A DNA stretch of 64,000 nt, from the NCBI RefSeq assembly GCF_000196235.1, contig NC_008541.1:3224001-3288000 (forward strand), read 5' to 3'. Position numbers and translations under genes: made by a program. This document shows, in pieces, positions 31,356 through 48,688 of the stretch (positions within the stretch are counted from its first letter, which is position 1; each line of letters begins with the position of its first letter). Under the pieces are notes generated by a model that worked only from the letters and a program-made list of their open reading frames with translations, was not told the origin of the DNA and searched no databases. This stretch comes from Arthrobacter sp. FB24 (GTDB lineage Bacteria; Actinomycetota; Actinomycetes; Actinomycetales; Micrococcaceae).

Positions 31356-33161
31356 TCAGCACCCGCTTCCGGGGGCGTGGGGGCCGACGGCGGCAGGCAG
31401 CTTTCCGGGTGCCGGCGCCTTGCCCGCCAGAACGGCAACCAGGGCGTTGAAGGCCTCCTGGCTCCGCCCGTAGAGGGCCACCTTGGCGGGTGCCGTCGAG
31501 CCGGCCAGCGGCCACGGCGCATCAAGGGCCACCACGACGTCGCCCGTGGCGGGCGGCCCTTCATAGCCGATCAGCGTCACGAGCGGCCCGGCGCCGAGGG
31601 TAATGCCGGCAGCCCGGGCAGCCCGGGCAAACCGGGCACGGTCCTGTTCACTGCCGCCGGCAACGCGGACGCTGCCGGGCACCACCGGCCCGTGGCACGG
31701 TCCGGCCAGGACGGTCACCGCGGCCGCGGAAATACGTTCGGAGAGGGCAGAGCCGCTTCCCGGGGCTGCACCCTGTGGAGCAGGGGTCCGTGCGCGCCAA
31801 ATCATCATGGTCACCACCCGCTGTGCCGCGTCGTTGAGGCGCGACGCCGGGAGCGCGCCGGTCTTGACGGCGCTGACCACTGCCGCGTGGGCGGCGGCCA
31901 CGTCCCCGGGCATGAGCAGCAGATCCGCCCCCGCTGCCAGGGCCAGCGGTGCGGCGGACTCCCCGGGGTATTGCTTCGTGATCGCACCCATGTTGAGTGC
32001 ATCGGTCACGGCAACGCCCTTGAAACCCATGCCGCGGAGGGTGGCGTAGCTCTGTTTGGACAACGACGCCGGAACCCCCGGTTCCAGGGCCGGCACGGAG
32101 ATGTGGCCGGTCATGATCATGGGCAGCCCGGCATCGATGGCGGCCTGGAAAGGTTTCCAGTCCTTCGCGCGGAGCTGCGCCACCGTTGCTTTCTGCACCG
32201 GCAGGTTCTCGTGCGAGTCGACGGCAACGGAGCCGTGCCCCGGGAAGTGCTTGGCGGAAGGCAGGATCCCGGCCGCCAGCATTCCCTGGGCAAAGCCGAC
32301 GCCCAGGCTTGCTGCCGCGTCCGGGTCGCCGGACATGGCCCTGGCGCCGATCGTCGGATCCTGCGGCCCCGCTGTGACATCCGTGTCCGGCGCGAAATCC
32401 GCAGTGAAGCCCAGCCCGGCCAGCTCCGCCGCGAGCGCCTTGCCGGCGTCGGTTGCCAGCCCGACGTTCCCTGCGGCGCCGAAGCTCATGGGTGCCGGCC
32501 ATTCCGTCAACGGAGCGCGCAGCCTCGCCACGACCCCGCCCTCCTGGTCCACCCCGACCAGTGCAGGCCAGGTGCGTCCGTCCGCCTTGGCCGCGTTCCG
32601 GAGGCGGCTGATGCCTGCCGCCATGGCGGCGGTGTCCACGGTTCCGTCGGCGGAGAGGGGCACGTTGTCACCCATGATGATCGCGCCGCCCAGGTGCAGC
32701 CGTTCCATGGTTGCCGCGTGCGAAGCAAAATCCGTTCCGGTAAAGAACGGCATCATCACCTGCCCGGCCTTCTGTTCAAGGCTCATTGCTGCGACAGCGG
32801 CGCGGGCCGAGTCTTCATCCTGCTGCTGCGGCCCCCAGCCCAGCTGGCGCTCCCCAGGTGCCGGGGTGGGAGGCCCGGAGGATCGCGGGGCTCCCGAAGC
32901 ACCGGGTTCGGACCGCACGGCTCCGCCGGACGGTGATGCCGTGCCGGGGGACGTTCCCGACGGCGTTCCCGAGGTGGGCGGAGAAGGCACACCGGTGCAG
33001 GCTGCGGTCGCGAGCATGGCCGCAGTCATCGCGAGGGCCGGCGCTGACTTGTGGAAAGTCTTTGTGTGCGGCGTCTTTTTGTGCGGCGTCTTTTTGTGCG
33101 GCGTCTTTTTGTGGGGCGTCTTTTTGTGGGAACTGTCACTGCGTCCTCGAAACCAAGCCAT
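31356..33161 (-). CDS. GH3 family beta-N-acetylhexosaminidase-like lipoprotein
   Basis: 601 aa. After an unusual basic N-terminus made of KTPHK repeats, a hydrophobic segment and lipobox ATAAC mark a lipoprotein (Cys near residue 55). A Ser/Pro/Gly-rich linker leads to a glycoside hydrolase family 3 barrel (about 115-430) with the NagZ-type motif KHFPGHGSVAVDSH and nucleophile Asp in VTDALNMGAI. The C-terminal part (about 450-590) is a GH3 C-domain-like fold. NagZ-type enzymes remove N-acetylglucosamine from wall fragments; an extracytoplasmic form would act in wall recycling. ATG 33161 is used; a TTG directly before it is less likely. Confidence 0.88.
   Translation of the reverse strand: MAWFRGRSDSSHKKTPHKKTPHKKTPHKKTPHTKTFHKSAPALAMTAAMLATAACTGVPSPPTSGTPSGTSPGTASPSGGAVRSEPGASGAPRSSGPPTPAPGERQLGWGPQQQDEDSARAAVAAMSLEQKAGQVMMPFFTGTDFASHAATMERLHLGGAIIMGDNVPLSADGTVDTAAMAAGISRLRNAAKADGRTWPALVGVDQEGGVVARLRAPLTEWPAPMSFGAAGNVGLATDAGKALAAELAGLGFTADFAPDTDVTAGPQDPTIGARAMSGDPDAAASLGVGFAQGMLAAGILPSAKHFPGHGSVAVDSHENLPVQKATVAQLRAKDWKPFQAAIDAGLPMIMTGHISVPALEPGVPASLSKQSYATLRGMGFKGVAVTDALNMGAITKQYPGESAAPLALAAGADLLLMPGDVAAAHAAVVSAVKTGALPASRLNDAAQRVVTMMIWRARTPAPQGAAPGSGSALSERISAAAVTVLAGPCHGPVVPGSVRVAGGSEQDRARFARAARAAGITLGAGPLVTLIGYEGPPATGDVVVALDAPWPLAGSTAPAKVALYGRSQEAFNALVAVLAGKAPAPGKLPAAVGPHAPGSGC
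33066..33130. repeat. 15-bp tandem repeat inside the GH3 lipoprotein gene
   Basis: Four consecutive copies of GTGCGGCGTCTTTTT (the fourth has one change, GTGGGG) plus a 5-base remnant. Read on the minus strand each copy encodes Lys-Lys-Thr-Pro-His, giving a basic five-residue repeat before the signal peptide. The copy number is a multiple of three bases, so gain or loss would not shift the frame. Confidence 0.95.
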
Positions 33162-43243: not shown

Positions 43244-44941
43244 ATGTCTGACAACAACGTCATGAGTGACCTGGAAATCGCCCAGCGCGCCACCATGCGC
43301 CCCATCGGTGACATCGCCGCCGCGGCAGGCATCAACGCCGACGCCGTGGAACTCTATGGCCGGTACAAGGCGAAAATCGATCCGGCGAAGCTTATAGATC
43401 CGGCAGGGGCACCGAAGCGCCTGCCGGGCAAGGTGGTGCTCGTCTCCGCGATGTCCCCCACTCCGGCGGGCGAGGGGAAGTCCACCACCACGGTGGGTCT
43501 GGCGGATTCCCTCGCCCGGGCGGGCCGGAACGTGATGATTGCGCTGCGTGAGCCGTCCCTGGGTCCCGTTCTTGGGATGAAGGGCGGGGCCACCGGCGGA
43601 GGCTACTCCCAGGTGCTGCCCATGGAGGAAATCAACCTGCACTTCACGGGCGACTTCCACGCCATCACCTCGGCGAACAACGCGCTCATGGCCCTGGTGG
43701 ACAACCATATTTTCCAGGGCAACGAACTCAACATCGATCCCCGCAGGATGACCTTCAAACGGGTCCTCGACATGAACGACCGCTCCCTCCGCGAAGTGAT
43801 CATCGGCCTCGGCGGTCCGGCCCAGGGCGTCCCGCGGCAGGACGGCTTCGACATCACCGTGGCTTCGGAGATCATGGCGGTCTTCTGCCTGGCCACGGAC
43901 ATCGCCGATCTCCGTGCCCGGCTGGGCCGCATCACCTTCGGCTATACCTATGACCGCGAACCCGTCACGGTGGCGGACCTCGGGGTCCAGGGTGCACTGA
44001 CCATGCTGCTCAGGGATGCGATCAAGCCCAACCTCGTGCAGACCATCGCCGGCACTCCGGCCCTGGTGCACGGCGGCCCGTTTGCCAACATCGCACACGG
44101 CTGCAACTCGCTGATCGCCACCCAGACCGCCCGCCGGCTCGCGGACATCGTGGTCACCGAAGCCGGCTTCGGCGCAGACCTGGGCGCGGAAAAGTTCATG
44201 GACATCAAGGCGAGGGTGGCAGGCGTGGCGCCGTCCGCCGTCGTGCTCGTGGCAACCGTACGGGCGCTGAAGATGCACGGCGGTGTGGCCAAGGACCGGC
44301 TGCAGGAGCCCAACGTGGAGGCGCTGGCCGCCGGATCGGCAAATCTCCGGCGGCACATCCGCAACGTGGAGAAGTTCGGAATCACTCCCGTGGTGGCCGT
44401 CAACAAGTTCGCCACTGACACCCCGGAGGAGTTGGACTGGCTGCTGGAGTGGTGCGCCGGCGAAGGGGTGCAGGCCGCGGTGGCAGACGTCTGGGGTCGC
44501 GGCGGCGGCGGCGACGGCGGCGACGAGCTCGCGGCCAAGGTGCTCGCGGCGCTCGAGGCGCCGCACAGCTTCCGGCACCTCTACCCGCTGGAGCTGTCTG
44601 TGGAGGACAAGATCCGCACCATCGTGCAGGAAATGTACGGGGCCGACGGCGTGGACTTCTCCGTTCCCGCCCTCAAGCGCCTTGCCGAAATCGAGAAGAA
44701 CGGCTGGGCCGGCATGCCCGTCTGCATGGCCAAGACCCAGTACTCCTTCAGTGACGACGCCACCCGCCTGGGCGCACCGAAAGGCTTCACGGTCCATGTA
44801 CGGGACCTCATCCCCAAGACCGGGGCGGGTTTCATCGTGGCCCTGACCGGCGCGGTGATGACGATGCCGGGTCTGCCCAAGGTTCCGGCAGCCCTGCGGA
44901 TGGACGTGGACGACACCGGCAAGCCCCTCGGCCTCTTCTAG
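43244..44941 (+). CDS. fhs: Formate-tetrahydrofolate ligase
   Basis: 565 aa. P-loop [18 protein letters not shown] near residue 67-84, then the family motif [19 protein letters not shown] (about 100-118), [13 protein letters not shown] and [12 protein letters not shown] near the C-terminus. Makes 10-formyl-THF from formate, THF and ATP. ATG 43244 has GAAGGA upstream. The stop TAG shares its G with the first base of a 32-bp tandem repeat, so the 3' end abuts the array. Confidence 0.96.
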
Positions 44942-45154
44942 ACGCTCTCTCACCTCCTGCCGGTTTTTCCCAGACCCTCTCTCACTTCCTGCCGGTTTTT
45001 CCCAAACGCTCTCTCACTTCCAGCCTGTTTTTCCCAGACGCTCTCTCACTTCCAGCCTGTTTTTCCCAGACGCTCTCTCACTTCCTGCCGGTTTTTCCCA
45101 GACCCTCTCTCACTTCCTGCCGATTTTTCCCAGACCCTCTCTCACTTCCTGCCG
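44941..45154 (-). repeat. 32-bp tandem repeat cluster A (6.7 copies, inverted orientation)
   Basis: Six full 32-bp units start at 44941, 44973, 45005, 45037, 45069 and 45101, followed by a 22-base partial unit from 45133. On the minus strand every unit carries the core GTGAGAGAG, in most followed by CGTCTGGG, then A-rich and G-rich stretches. Units differ by a few point changes (for example CCGGCAGG or CAGGCTGG). There are no spacers, so it is not a CRISPR array. The same 32-bp family recurs in the opposite orientation at 46173-46252 and 47477-47602. Confidence 0.95.
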
Positions 45155-45168
45155 ACCAAACAGCTGCC

Positions 45169-45177
45169 TGTGGATAA
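45169..45177 (-). promoter_or_regulatory. DnaA-box-like nonamer ahead of the endonuclease-like gene
   Basis: TGTGGATAA on the plus strand, a perfect match to the DnaA-box consensus TTATNCACA read on the minus strand. A single copy, 15 bases after repeat cluster A and 40 bases before the gene at 45217. It may be chance. Confidence 0.3.
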
Positions 45178-45216
45178 CTTCTGCAGCGCGAGTGGTTTTC
45201 GGGTAACAATGCCAGC

Positions 45217-46176
45217 ATGCAAAAGCGCAACGAATTGCCCGGCCATCTGGCGGTGGCTCCATTCACGTTGGATTCAGCGCGGGCGTCCGGAGTTTCCAGG
45301 GCCAGGCTGCGGCGGAAAGATGTGGTTCATGTGGGCCGCGGACTCTACCGGCCGTCAGACTGGAACTTCGAACTGGAGGCCGCTGCAAGGGCGTTGTCTA
45401 CCGCGTCGCCAGGGGCTTGGATATCCCACGTCACGGCAGCCCGGCTTCACTGCCAACTCCTGCCACCCTGGCTAGCTGACTCGACGGAGTTGCACTTGAG
45501 CAAGCCCCGGGCCCTGCCCTCTGTGCGCCGCAGCGGCGTTATCGGCCACACGGTGGTGGCCCTCGAGGACGAGATTGAATCGATCGATGGCCTCCGCGTC
45601 AGTACCCGTTCGCGGACCTGGCTGGATCTGGCGCGACGGCTGCCGGTGAGCGATCTGGTGTGCATGGGGGATCAGCTGATCCGTGTCCCGCGAGTGGCGT
45701 TCGAGGGACGCACCCGGCCTTATGACACTTTGGACGGTCTCCGCACCTTGGTTGGCCGCCACCCAAACCTGCAGGGTGTAGTCCGTGCCCGGGAGGCGCT
45801 GCACCTCATGCGGGTCGGTGCGGATTCCGCGCCCGAATCGCTTCTCCGCCTGGCAATGGCCGACGCCGGCCTCCCTGAGCCGGAGCTCCAGTTGGCGTTG
45901 CGCCCAACGGATGCCGTGTCGCCCACGGCTGATCTGGGCTACCGTCACCGGCGTCTCGCCATCCAGTACGACGGCGAACATCACCTTCTCGACGCCCAGA
46001 TCTTCAGCGACAGACGGCGGGACAAAGCATTTGAGTCGGCTGGCTGGACGGTCCTGATCCTCGGCAAGGACGATCTTGCTGATGGTTGCCGGCCGGCCGT
46101 CAGCAAGATCAAACGACTGCTGCGCACCGCATGGCTCGATCATCCCCAAGCGTCCGGTTTTGCCGACGCCGGGTGA
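45217..46176 (+). CDS. Winged-helix (AbiEi-like) plus DUF559 endonuclease-like protein
   Basis: 319 aa, cytosolic. Residues about 1-60 resemble the AbiEi-type winged helix (start LPGHLAVAPFTLDSARASG, later RKDVVHVGRGLYRP). The C-terminal 100 residues match the DUF559/Vsr-like nuclease fold: TADLGYRHRR, AIQYDGEHHL, DRRRDKAFESAGWTVLIL. The catalytic Asp of DLGY and of YDGEHH are present; Gln replaces the Glu often seen before YDG. Such genes are frequent single accessory genes in actinobacteria and their role is unknown. No ribosome-binding site precedes ATG 45217. The stop TGA is provided by the first repeat unit of cluster B. Flanked on both sides by inverted 32-bp repeats. Confidence 0.8.
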   Translation: MQKRNELPGHLAVAPFTLDSARASGVSRARLRRKDVVHVGRGLYRPSDWNFELEAAARALSTASPGAWISHVTAARLHCQLLPPWLADSTELHLSKPRALPSVRRSGVIGHTVVALEDEIESIDGLRVSTRSRTWLDLARRLPVSDLVCMGDQLIRVPRVAFEGRTRPYDTLDGLRTLVGRHPNLQGVVRAREALHLMRVGADSAPESLLRLAMADAGLPEPELQLALRPTDAVSPTADLGYRHRRLAIQYDGEHHLLDAQIFSDRRRDKAFESAGWTVLILGKDDLADGCRPAVSKIKRLLRTAWLDHPQASGFADAG

Positions 46177-46252
46177 GAGAGCGTTGCGCCAAAACCCGCC
46201 AAAAGTGAGAGAGGATCAGTCTTAAACCTGTAGGGAATGAGAGAGCGTCTGG
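46173..46252 (+). repeat. 32-bp repeat cluster B (about 2.5 copies)
   Basis: A full unit at 46173-46204 (GTGAGAGAGCG core), a degenerate unit 46205-46236 (GTGAGAGAGGATC), and a partial unit from 46237 (ATGAGAGAGCGTCTGG), all in 32-base register. The unit supplies the stop codon of the endonuclease-like gene, and the 3' part encodes the C-terminal residues QTLSHS of the opposing DUF2306 gene. Confidence 0.9.
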
Positions 46253-46731
46253 TCCTTTGCTTTGGCTGCCACCCCGGTACTGCCACCGCGCTTGAGTGAA
46301 ACGAACATCACCGCCACGCTCAGCACCACCAGCCCGGCAACGTACGCCGCGGAGGCCGGGTCCTCGGCAAGAAGTTGCGGGATGGCCCGTCCCGGCACCG
46401 CGACGGCGAAAATGAACGCCACGGAGATACCGATATAGCTACCCACCATGTTTCCCAGGTGCGACGGAACGTTGCCGCGAATTGCACTCACAAGGCCGAG
46501 GGTAACGGTCACGATGGTGAAGGCGGACAGCCCGTGCAGCCAGGTGAAATGTCCGGCGGTCACAATCCAGAAACTGCTGAAGCAGACGTAGTACATGGCT
46601 GCCACCCACAGGTAGCCCATCGTGCGGTGGATGCGGTCGCGTCGACGGCGAAGTATTTGAAAGGGGCCAATGACGAGGACGAACAACGCTGCGATCACAT
46701 GACTGACAAGCAGTACATTCCAGTGCTCCAT
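46222..46731 (-). CDS. DUF2306 family membrane protein
   Basis: 169 aa with about four membrane helices (5-22, 39-60, 64-88, 98-116, 128-148). The second-helix region IHRTMGYLWVAAMY and the HGLSAFTIVTV segment fit DUF2306. The last residues (DQTLSHSLQV) are encoded by the 32-bp repeat. ATG 46731 has AAGG upstream. Divergent from the MerR gene with shared ACTATCC/GGATAGT boxes; the MerR protein probably controls it. Transport or sensing role unknown. Confidence 0.8.
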   Translation of the reverse strand: MEHWNVLLVSHVIAALFVLVIGPFQILRRRRDRIHRTMGYLWVAAMYYVCFSSFWIVTAGHFTWLHGLSAFTIVTVTLGLVSAIRGNVPSHLGNMVGSYIGISVAFIFAVAVPGRAIPQLLAEDPASAAYVAGLVVLSVAVMFVSLKRGGSTGVAAKAKDQTLSHSLQV

Positions 46732-46738
46732 AGCCTTA

Positions 46739-46796
46739 GGATAGAGCCACTATCCAGGCATGTACATCAGGATAGTCGGCGCCGGATCCACTATCC
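46739..46796. promoter_or_regulatory. Multiple ACTATCC/GGATAGT boxes between DUF2306 and MerR genes
   Basis: GGATAG (46739-46744), CTATCC (46750-46755), GGATAG (46770-46775) and CTATCC (46791-46796) alternate; ACTATCC at 46749 and 46790 and GGATAGT at 46770 are spaced about two helical turns apart (starts 21 and 20 bases apart). This is a likely binding array for the MerR-type regulator that lies beside it, controlling both divergent genes. Confidence 0.65.
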
Positions 46797-46830
46797 AATG
46801 GACCCAAGCCTCGAACCCAAGAAGGCGCGG

Positions 46831-47454
46831 ATGCAGCTCAAGGAACTCAGTGAGCGGTCGGGGGTCTCGGCCGCCAGCATCAAGTATTACCTGCGTGAGG
46901 GCCTGTTGCCCGCCGGGGCGGCCGTCCACCCAACCCGCGCGCAGTATTCAGCGCGGCACGTCGAGCGACTCGAATTGATCCAGGCGCTCCGCCGGATAGT
47001 CGGACTGACCATCGAACAGATCCGCGGTCTGCTCAGAATGGCCGACGACGGCGCACCGCGGCTTGACCTGTTGGCGGCAGTCCAGCGCGTGGTGCTGGAG
47101 CTGGACAGCTACGCCACAACGGGTGGCGGCGTCGGCACACCGGCGGCTGACGCCGTCGTACGTCTTCGGGGCTGGCCCGATGCCCAGAGCGACGCCCGGA
47201 ACGCGCTCAATGCGCATGTCGAGTTGATGGAAAGCCTCAACATCCGTGTCTCACCTGAGGTGCTGGACACGTACAGCAAGGCTATGGATGACGTCGCCGG
47301 GATCGATATCGCGGCCACGACGGCGCCGGACAGCGTCGACCAGCTTATTCTCACTGCCGCAGTCGGGATGCACATGCACAGCCGGCTGCTGCTCAGGCTC
47401 CTGGCGCTTGCACAGGCCAGCCACGCCATCCGCAGATATGAAAATGACGTTTAA
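46831..47454 (+). CDS. MerR-family transcriptional regulator
   Basis: 207 aa. N-terminal winged HTH of MerR type: MQLKELSERSGVSAASIKYY, then the second helix pair with EIEQIRGLLRM-like IEQIRGLLR. The C-terminal 130 residues are helical with no metal-binding Cys motif, so it is an effector type different from heavy-metal MerR. ATG 46831 is chosen because AGAAGG lies eight bases upstream; ATG 46798 would add 11 residues and abut the operator. Divergent from the DUF2306 gene. Confidence 0.85.
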   Translation: MQLKELSERSGVSAASIKYYLREGLLPAGAAVHPTRAQYSARHVERLELIQALRRIVGLTIEQIRGLLRMADDGAPRLDLLAAVQRVVLELDSYATTGGGVGTPAADAVVRLRGWPDAQSDARNALNAHVELMESLNIRVSPEVLDTYSKAMDDVAGIDIAATTAPDSVDQLILTAAVGMHMHSRLLLRLLALAQASHAIRRYENDV

Positions 47455-47455
47455 G

Positions 47456-47493
47456 CGCGACGCTCCCCCACCGGAAGTGAGAGAGCGTCGCGC
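47456..47493 (+). terminator. Hairpin at the MerR 3' end, partly built from a repeat unit
   Basis: GCGCGACGCTC (47456-47466) pairs perfectly with GAGCGTCGCGC (47483-47493), 11 bp with a 16-nt loop. The right arm lies inside the first unit of repeat cluster C and the left arm looks like an inverted partial unit. It starts just after the MerR stop codon. No T-run follows. Confidence 0.5.
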
Positions 47494-47602
47494 CAAAACC
47501 CACCAAAAGTGAGAGAGCGGCGCCAAAACCCACCAAAAGTGAGAGAGCGTCGCGCCAAAACCCACCAAAAGTGAGAGAGCGTCGCGGGGAAAGCGGGAGG
47601 GC
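47477..47602 (+). repeat. 32-bp repeat cluster C (4 copies)
   Basis: Units at 47477-47508 (32 bp), 47509-47538 (30 bp, missing TC), 47539-47570 (32 bp) and 47571-47602 (32 bp, divergent second half). The first three are nearly identical, core GTGAGAGAGCG and CCAAAACCCACCAAAA. The cluster ends exactly at the ino1 stop codon (47603) and lies between convergent MerR and ino1 genes. Confidence 0.92.
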
Positions 47603-48688
47603 TTAGCGCTCCAGGTCTCCGCGGATGAAGGCCTCAACCTTTTCACGGGCGAGGTCGTCGTTGAACTGTTCCGGCGGGGACTTCATGAAGTAGCTGGACG
47701 CCGAGAGCAGCGGGCCGCCGATACCGCGGTCCAGGCCGATCTTGGCCGCGCGGATGGCGTCGATGATCACGCCGGCGGAGTTGGGTGAGTCCCAGACCTC
47801 CAGCTTGTATTCGAGCGACACCGGGGCGTCACCGAAGTTGCGTCCTTCGAGGCGCACGAAGGCCCACTTGCGGTCATCGAGCCACTGGACGTAGTCGGAC
47901 GGGCCGATGTGCACGTCCTTGGCGGCCAGTTCAGCTTCGACGTTGGACGTGACGGCCTGGGTCTTGGAGATCTTCTTGGACTCGAGGCGGTCGCGCTCCA
48001 GCATGTTCTTGAAGTCCATGTTGCCGCCGACGTTCAGCTGGTAGGTGCGGTCCAGCGTGACGCCGCGGTCTTCGAAGAGCTTGGCCATGACGCGGTGCGT
48101 GATGGTGGCACCGATCTGGCTCTTGATGTCGTCGCCCACGATCGGGACACCGGCGGCCGTGAACTTGTCCGCCCACTCCTTGGTTCCGGCGATGAAGACG
48201 GGCAGGGCGTTGACGAAGGCCACGCCGGCGTCGATTGCGGCCTGTGCGTAGAATTCGGCGGCTTCCTGCGATCCAACGGGCAGGTAGCAGACCATGACGT
48301 CAACCTTGGCGTCCTTCAGTGCCTGGACAACATCGACCGGCTCTGACGGGGACTGCTCAATGGTCTCAAGGTAGTACTTGCCGAGGCCGTCCAGGGTGGG
48401 GCCGCGCTGGACCGTTACGCCGGTGGGCGGGACGTCGGCGATCTTGATGGTGTTGTTTTCGCTGGCCAGGATGGCGTCGGCCAGGTCAACGCCGACCTTC
48501 TTGCCGTCGACATCGAAGGCTGCAACGAATTCAACATCGTTGACGTGGTACTTGCCGAACTCCACGTGCATCAGACCGGGAATCGTGGCCTGGGGGTCGG
48601 CATCCCGGTAGTAGTGGACACCCTGGACCAGGGACGCGGCGCAGTTACCCACACCGACGATGGCAACACGAATCGGATTTGAAGACAC
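47603..48688 (-). CDS. ino1: Inositol-3-phosphate synthase
   Basis: 361 aa. NAD-binding start [17 protein letters not shown], the motifs [14 protein letters not shown] and [18 protein letters not shown] (about 200-217), and [12 protein letters not shown]. Converts glucose 6-phosphate to inositol 3-phosphate, precursor of mycothiol and phosphatidylinositol. GTG 48688 has AAAGGAG six bases upstream, strongly favoured over upstream starts. The short actinobacterial form fits. MshA at 41914-43179 uses the product. Confidence 0.95.

Follow-up and report, generated by a model that had tools for sequence, protein, structure and literature searches.

An inverted 32-bp repeat array around an AbiEi-like/Vsr-like endonuclease gene in Arthrobacter sp. 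FB24 suggests a nuclease-repeat partnership

The fhs-ino1 locus and its repeat family

The DNA analyzed here comes from Arthrobacter sp. FB24 (NC_008541.1; the 5.07-Mb genome is labelled G000), and the whole stretch of 64,000 nt is referred to as the window. Between fhs and ino1, the window carries three clusters of a 32-bp repeat that alternate with an endonuclease gene and with a gene pair for a DUF2306 protein and a MerR-family regulator. A preliminary description had placed three clusters here, the left one inverted relative to both clusters on the right, and both observations held. The window contains 13 exact copies of the core GTGAGAGAG against 0.52 expected: seven on the minus strand (44945-45145), two on the plus strand (46173-46213) and four more on the plus strand (47477-47579). 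The middle cluster has three cores when up to two mismatches are allowed. Tandem Repeats Finder (TRF) also reported a period of 32, with 6.7 copies at 44940-45154 and 3.8 copies at 47467-47586. A chance origin of the clusters was rejected because none of 100 shuffles gave 13 or more cores, and an Rfam RNA family was rejected as the identity of the repeats because no family matched up to E 1 in 44700-47800. The locus is one array, split twice: (-)7, nuclease, (+)3, DUF2306-MerR, (+)4. The proposal that each gene module is bounded by repeats, as at the ends of a mobile island, was not supported. The DUF2306/MerR pair just splits the plus half, and two relatives (G015 and G021) have the array and, by eye, a DUF2306 gene without the nuclease. 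Pfam matches bore out the names given to fhs, ino1, DUF2306 and MerR; the DUF559 assignment fell short in this protein (18.1 bits, cut-off 20.6), and PF04480 (DUF559) is carried by some of its close homologs.

The clusters had also been taken as a feature specific to this island. Instead, the core is present 131 times across the genome (61 forward, 70 reverse) versus 5 for a reversed-pattern control, with 66 tandem core pairs versus none in the control. We read 35 clusters from fetched stretches and the window, which are part of the genome's clusters (at least 100 of the 131 core places were listed). All 16 two-strand clusters among them have the minus-then-plus order, (-)m(+)n. Same-strand cores are spaced by 32 in 57 cases, and the commonest minus-plus offset is 23 in the coordinates used (8 cases), a 13-bp gap between 9-mers. 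Relative to crude open reading frame (ORF) calls, 32 clusters were placed as 14 convergent, 14 tandem, 2 divergent and 2 inside ORFs; three further clusters with no flanking ORF on one side were left out of this count. The consensus of 117 units, chosen by TGAGAGAG so that the core is fixed by selection, is AAGTGAGAGAGCGT[C/T] followed by a loosely conserved spacer, written AAGTGAGAGAGCGTC with the variable spacer, and the units lack a GTAG tag. By eye, spacers are similar within a cluster and different between clusters. Directly 3' of the core stands CGT[C/T]. No stable fold was obtained for the tandem units of the left half. A minus-plus pair does fold stably, and the central part of an array without the gene (a solo array, at site Y below) forms a hairpin with 22-bp arms (z -13.9).

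The nuclease appears to combine two parts, an AbiEi-like half and, fused to it, a Vsr/I-Bth0305I-like endonuclease. Its first ~200 residues appear AbiEi/Rv2827c-like by fold comparison, and residues 16-141 match the AbiEi models of a defence library by profile. E207, D239, D252, H256 and D265 are invariant in 98 of 98 aligned proteins, and H255 is present in 95. I-Bth0305I is a homing endonuclease of the EDxHD family. According to Pfam, none of the five proteins encoded from fhs to ino1 is an AbiEii nucleotidyltransferase (NTase) toxin.

Table 1. Features of the fhs-ino1 locus (window coordinates)
Feature	Position	Strand	Basis
Left half of array, 7 inverted 32-bp units, core GTGAGAGAG[C/G]GT on minus strand	44940..45154	-	TRF, core counts
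TGTGGATAA (DnaA-box-like TTATCCACA), 5' of nuclease gene	45169..45177	+	Read in sequence; within 160 bp of start in 77/80 related loci
AbiEi-like/Vsr-like endonuclease, 319 aa	45217..46176	+	ORF, Pfam, profile and fold comparison
Codons 98-112, holding residues 98, 102 and 112 that covary with the repeat core	45508..45552	+	Covariation
Codons 203-307, Vsr/I-Bth0305I-like nuclease domain	45823..46137	+	Fold comparison, aligned proteins
Right half of array, part 1, 3 cores; first core overlaps nuclease stop codon	46173..46252	+	Core counts
DUF2306 membrane protein, passenger splitting the plus half	46222..46731	-	ORF, Pfam
MerR-family regulator, passenger	46798..47454	+	ORF, Pfam
Right half of array, part 2, 4 cores	47477..47602	+	TRF, core counts

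Bracketing, covariation and site occupancy in relatives

Searched with the strict core, 22 of 59 relatives showed tandem pairs. We rejected the absence of repeats from many relatives that this search implied, as their nuclease flanks carry variant cores. A nuclease-family match at E 1e-20 or better, paralogs included, was present in 37 of 37 same-genus genomes. For the bracketing analysis we used the best 80 of 164 related loci from titled genome records, 79 of which had enough flank, and scored a gene as bracketed when both flanks held two or more copies of one 11-mer, in opposite orientation on the two sides and spaced by 32 or 64 bp within each. Inverted 32-bp arrays bracket 68 of the 79 nuclease loci and 0 of 251 control ORFs from the same loci. 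The link between nuclease and repeats, proposed earlier from position only, is now backed by this bracketing as well as by the covariation below. Flank-to-flank alignment placed 60 of the 79 loci above the 95th percentile of 232 controls and 49 above the 99th, and direct-repeat bracketing showed no excess in clade A. A second clade (clade B, 50-58% identity) is bracketed, by eye, by palindromes of ~60 bp. We also tested 43 more distant homologs (4 own paralogs, 31 from the same genus and 8 from other genera of the order) against 233 control ORFs; 35 lay above the 99th percentile, including seven of the eight from other genera, and 36 above the 95th. A score of 18 in this test was reached by 2 of the 233 controls. 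The own paralogs L032-L035 have like repeats on both sides by eye, and all except L034 passed the statistical test. In 711 kb of G000, the L034 palindrome recurs 3 times versus 1 in the control at two mismatches and 27 versus 9 at three, and the L035 palindrome has 4 exact copies, its own locus included, and 7 versus 0 at three mismatches.

A two-sided core could be read in 81 of 100 loci, 80 of them with a clean protein. Residue 102 follows the fifth base of TGAGAGAGCGT: A occurs with S/A/P in 40/40, G with E/Q in 23/24 and C with G/A in 14/14 (residue-base counts S-A 34, A-A 4, P-A 2, E-G 20, Q-G 3, G-G 1, G-C 11, A-C 3, S-T 2). The normalised mutual information of this residue was 0.72, with 0.45 for the next column (54 de-duplicated rows). 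Because related sequences inflate mutual information, we compared pairs of close proteins, and residue 102 ranked first of 244 variable columns at identities of at least 70% (420 discordant pairs) and at least 75% (86). For two other core bases, the fourth and the seventh, T112 held first place at both 70% and 75%. On a tree built without columns 90-118, a minimum of 7 changes was counted for the fifth base and of 13 for residue 102. We infer that the segment 98-112 may touch DNA; model confidence is low for residues 98-105.

Similar matching was seen beyond the nuclease loci. Nearly all pairs among those listed for G036 are TGAGGGAGCGT-like, matching its nuclease flank, and most of those listed for G011 are TGAGCGGGCGT-like. 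The nuclease-flank core of G001, TGAGCGGGSGT, also occurs in its genome, and a single sampled cluster in each of G012 and G018 carries that genome's own core. No cluster was found for G035 and G017 in samples of 120-240 kb, too small to read a genome-wide core. Counts by the generic pattern are too low in G002 (TGAGGAAG) and G010 (TGCGGGAG), the cores of which it does not cover. The core differs between species and tracks the enzyme.

We then compared three sites, each in 30 loci: X (fhs-ino1), Y (a neighbourhood of PucR-like and purU genes) and Z (beside a small Lys-rich, AURKAIP1-like ORF). Site X holds a clade A or B nuclease in 21 (in fragments in G022), is clean and empty in one (G034, 87 bp), carries unrelated sequence in one (G005) and ends at contig ends in two (G028 and G036). 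The other five have an array or palindrome without the nuclease: G008 (degenerate), G013, G014 (palindrome), G015 and G021. Site Y holds the nuclease in three (G013, G015 and G021) and a solo array in four (G000, G020, G028 and G036, the last with a GGGAG core); none was seen in 23 within ~420 bp by the clade-A pattern. At site Z, four have the nuclease (G008, G023, G033 and G034), two have a solo array (G012 by pattern; G022 degenerate, by eye) and 24 have no array of clade-A type, although G006, G007 and G015 of these carry a palindrome of more distant type. Thus, in G000 and G020 the gene is at X and a solo array at Y, with the two swapped in G013, G015 and G021. The preliminary description would have given up the link if the repeats occurred genome-wide with no enrichment near such genes, and if strains lacking the gene kept identical repeats with no empty site. 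Genome-wide occurrence is real, and the five genomes named above keep an array or palindrome at X without the nuclease; but one of the 30 has a clean empty site, and four of the five (G008, G013, G015 and G021) have an array-adjoining nuclease at another site. Gene movement between arrays would be the simplest reading of these patterns. An ancestral multi-copy state followed by differential loss is possible; some genome records do hold two related loci (L140 and L146 in LR733293.1).

Upstream of the gene, TGTGGATAA occurs at a distance of up to 160 bp in 77 of the 80 loci. Its total in these loci (967 kb, both strands) is also 77, and evenly spaced G000 stretches have 6 per 400 kb. The TTATCCACA within it corresponds to a DnaA box, and two copies of TGTGGATAA stand directly after the first, dnaA-like ORF of C4, before the next ORF. 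Replication-linked expression of the nuclease gene would be a guess.

A homing-like nuclease-repeat system and its alternatives

We consider it probable that the dispersed (-)m(+)n arrays and a repeat-specific endonuclease form one system with homing-like movement and maintenance. The AbiEi-like half would bind the 11-14 bp core repeated every 32 bp, and the Vsr-like half would cut or nick DNA at arrays. The gene occupies the centre of one array, and with the gene between the minus and plus halves, its own locus lacks the joined minus-plus hairpin of solo arrays. It could settle in further arrays, in the way that a homing endonuclease gene occupies its own target; break repair would expand the 32-bp units locally, and drifting specificity of the enzyme would lead to arrays being rewritten across the genome. 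Comparison between genomes shows the bracketing, the genome-wide dispersal, the matched change of core and protein, the three-state occupancy of three sites and the conserved catalytic residues. At this level, recognition of the arrays by the nuclease is strongly supported, and the array is presumably its recognition site. By analogy, the occupied, solo and array-free states at three sites are the pattern expected of a homing gene in its own target, and tandem growth in 32-bp steps would fit the repair of breaks. The whole suggests a partnership of the nuclease with repeats that it would recognise.

Several results weigh against this homing-like system. It is by inference that the nuclease binds and cuts DNA, that break repair moves the gene, and that the moves run in a given direction. 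Foldseek alone gave no match to the protein at E 0.001, and a PDB profile search gave only I-Bth0305I, at E 0.2. Eleven of the 79 loci missed the bracketing criterion: L139, L143, L155 and L178 have a mainly one-sided array by the 11-mer test, L132, L146 and L174 have 1 and 2 copies, and L183, L184, L185 and L188 have no 11-mer repeated on either side (a degenerate-core method did find a two-sided core in L139, L143 and L188). The clade-B palindromes are low-copy (0-7 exact 13-mers per genome), and for the own paralogs L032 and L033, 711 kb of G000 yielded no additional palindrome copies. Additionally, TGAGAGAG arrays occur in G025 (17 pairs), G027 (14; 68% complete) and G028 (50; fhs at a contig end), in none of which a nuclease above 55% identity was found. 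Arrays can therefore persist or arrive without a clade-A nuclease.

The covariation has exceptions of its own. A102 pairs with A (4) and also with C (3), and residue 102 falls to rank 5 of 244 at 80% identity (10 discordant pairs). For the sixth core base, which varies mainly within one small clade, the best columns at 70% are T130 and S235, outside 98-112, with residue 102 at rank 51; for the third and ninth bases no column is strong. Independent pairs never oppose the association, yet the base is the same in some of them, and with under 6 pairs there are too few for a sign test. G001 carries a second dispersed core family, TGATGGGGCGT, for which no nuclease was identified and which is possibly the orphan of a lost nuclease. 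In G031, the sole pair in a 120-240 kb sample differs from its flank core.

The protein could instead be an autoregulating AbiEi-like regulator, the arrays at the gene serving as operators, the dispersed arrays as a regulon, terminators or insulators, and the nuclease domain serving another purpose. PMC7319586 describes binding of AbiEi and Rv2827c to inverted repeats in the promoters of their own genes, and both the placement of the clusters relative to ORFs and the strong hairpin of the solo array agree with such a role. It fails to account for the counterpart plus array 3' of the gene, for a nuclease that lies in different arrays from species to species, or for the differing cores at one shared site (G036 versus G000), and we consider it unlikely. 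Lower still we rate a defence or addiction role, in which foreign DNA would be the target of the nuclease and the repeats in the genome would serve as decoys or as marks of self. The N-terminal match to a defence library would suit it, as would the DUF559 protein VsrA, required for an SOS response in methyltransferase-lacking Caulobacter (PMC12907096). However, no NTase toxin gene accompanies the nuclease among the five genes from fhs to ino1, and decoy binding does not predict a gene found in different arrays.

Ordinary repetitive extragenic palindromes (REPs) mobilised by a REP-associated tyrosine transposase (RAYT), with the nuclease as a bystander, would share the REP-like placement, inverted pairing and hairpins. 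We find this very improbable: the core tracks the nuclease, the bracketing counts separate nuclease loci from controls, and RAYT was rejected as partner enzyme because a PF01797 search of the genome at E 0.01 was negative (6 of 14 control genomes were positive). The same three results agree with the original proposal of a REP-like repeat whose partner is a DUF559-type nuclease rather than a Y1 transposase. The observation is confirmed and, with the corrections given above, there is good support for its core idea that REP-like repeats here have a partner enzyme other than RAYT.

Known systems and the wider DUF559 family

The system works like a REPtron (REPIN/RAYT) in that short repeats bracket an enzyme gene, are also dispersed intergenically as inverted pairs, and are matched in type to the enzyme. 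It departs from the full definition of a REPtron in having an AbiEi-Vsr-like rather than a Y1/HUH enzyme, 32-bp tandem units with the gene in the array centre, and no GTAG tag. It also resembles a homing endonuclease, with break and conversion hypothetical: the catalytic-domain fold is like that of I-Bth0305I and Vsr, the gene lies amid its presumed target, inside its own putative recognition site, and sites without the gene exist. Unlike I-Bth0305I and Vsr, it has an AbiEi-like fusion, many dispersed 32-bp-array targets and no intron that we could see. The likeness to AbiEi/Rv2827c antitoxins lies in the fold of the first ~200 residues and the profile over 16-141; here this part is fused to a nuclease, with no AbiEii toxin among the neighbours examined.

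CGTC-tagged REPs are described in PMC3733652 as apparently lacking a dedicated transposase, the GTAG class having RAYT, and PMC4666352 reports no mobility activity near copies of the boxC/TM-ECO triplex repeats. The repeats described here are short and mostly intergenic like both of these, for which the two papers know no mobilising enzyme, and here CGT[C/T] comes after the core. A single unit on its own does not appear to form a hairpin like that of CGTC REPs (8-9 bp stem, 4-5 nt loop, CGTC tag). We regard the relation to CGTC REPs and boxC as a lead. Among the matches listed in the open-access literature (subscription papers and bioRxiv preprints lay outside the search), none linked DUF559 or AbiEi-nuclease fusions with repeats. 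Within those matches, a nuclease-repeat system of this kind is without prior description.

A broader idea is that DUF559/Vsr-like nucleases are the missing partners of a large share of RAYT-less palindromic repeats across phyla, including boxC-type CCCTCTCCC, each with a lineage-specific repeat coevolving by a readable protein-DNA code. We hold this tentatively, as somewhat more doubtful than not. From 43 plasmid records with a match we took 12 short DUF559 genes (hosts Azospirillum, Sphingomonas, Sphingobium, Shinella, Sinorhizobium, Methylobacterium, Deinococcus and cyanobacteria). Their flank-to-flank match exceeded the 95th percentile in 7 of 12 versus 10 of 256 control genes drawn from seven of the same replicons (rank test p 1.5e-5). 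Single-side palindrome strength did not set these genes apart from controls at the 95th percentile (1 of 12), although its rank test gave a low p of 5.6e-5. One of the seven passing genes, L299, appears to have related coding sequence on both sides rather than a repeat, which lowers the odds of the broad reading; several of the other passing loci have CCCTCTCCC-type palindromes. The DUF559 gene ycjD of E. coli adjoins boxC copy 9 of PMC4666352. At E 1e-8, the Pfam DUF559 hidden Markov model had a match in only 5 of the 40 genomes from the class. If the partnership holds, a nuclease that changes with its repeat and lies in different arrays per species would be a testable candidate mechanism for REPs without RAYT, the system would offer a natural protein-DNA recognition code, and a function would be suggested for a gene family annotated just as DUF559.

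Some minor observations were also made. The short plasmid DUF559 genes L298 and L300 lie inside operons (sufB-sufC and paaD-paaZ) and adjoin palindromic repeats. At L290 (E. coli MG1655 1351204-1351760, ycjD) there is, by eye, a 3' boxC palindrome with a degenerate second copy and another palindrome 5'. An Arthrobacter-type nuclease locus (L189, 62% identity) occurs under the record title Sporosarcina beigongshangi, in an assembly that may be mislabelled or contaminated. Lastly, the window contains a separate tandem repeat at 33058-33128 with a 15-bp unit in 4.7 copies (GTCTTTTTGTGCGGC).

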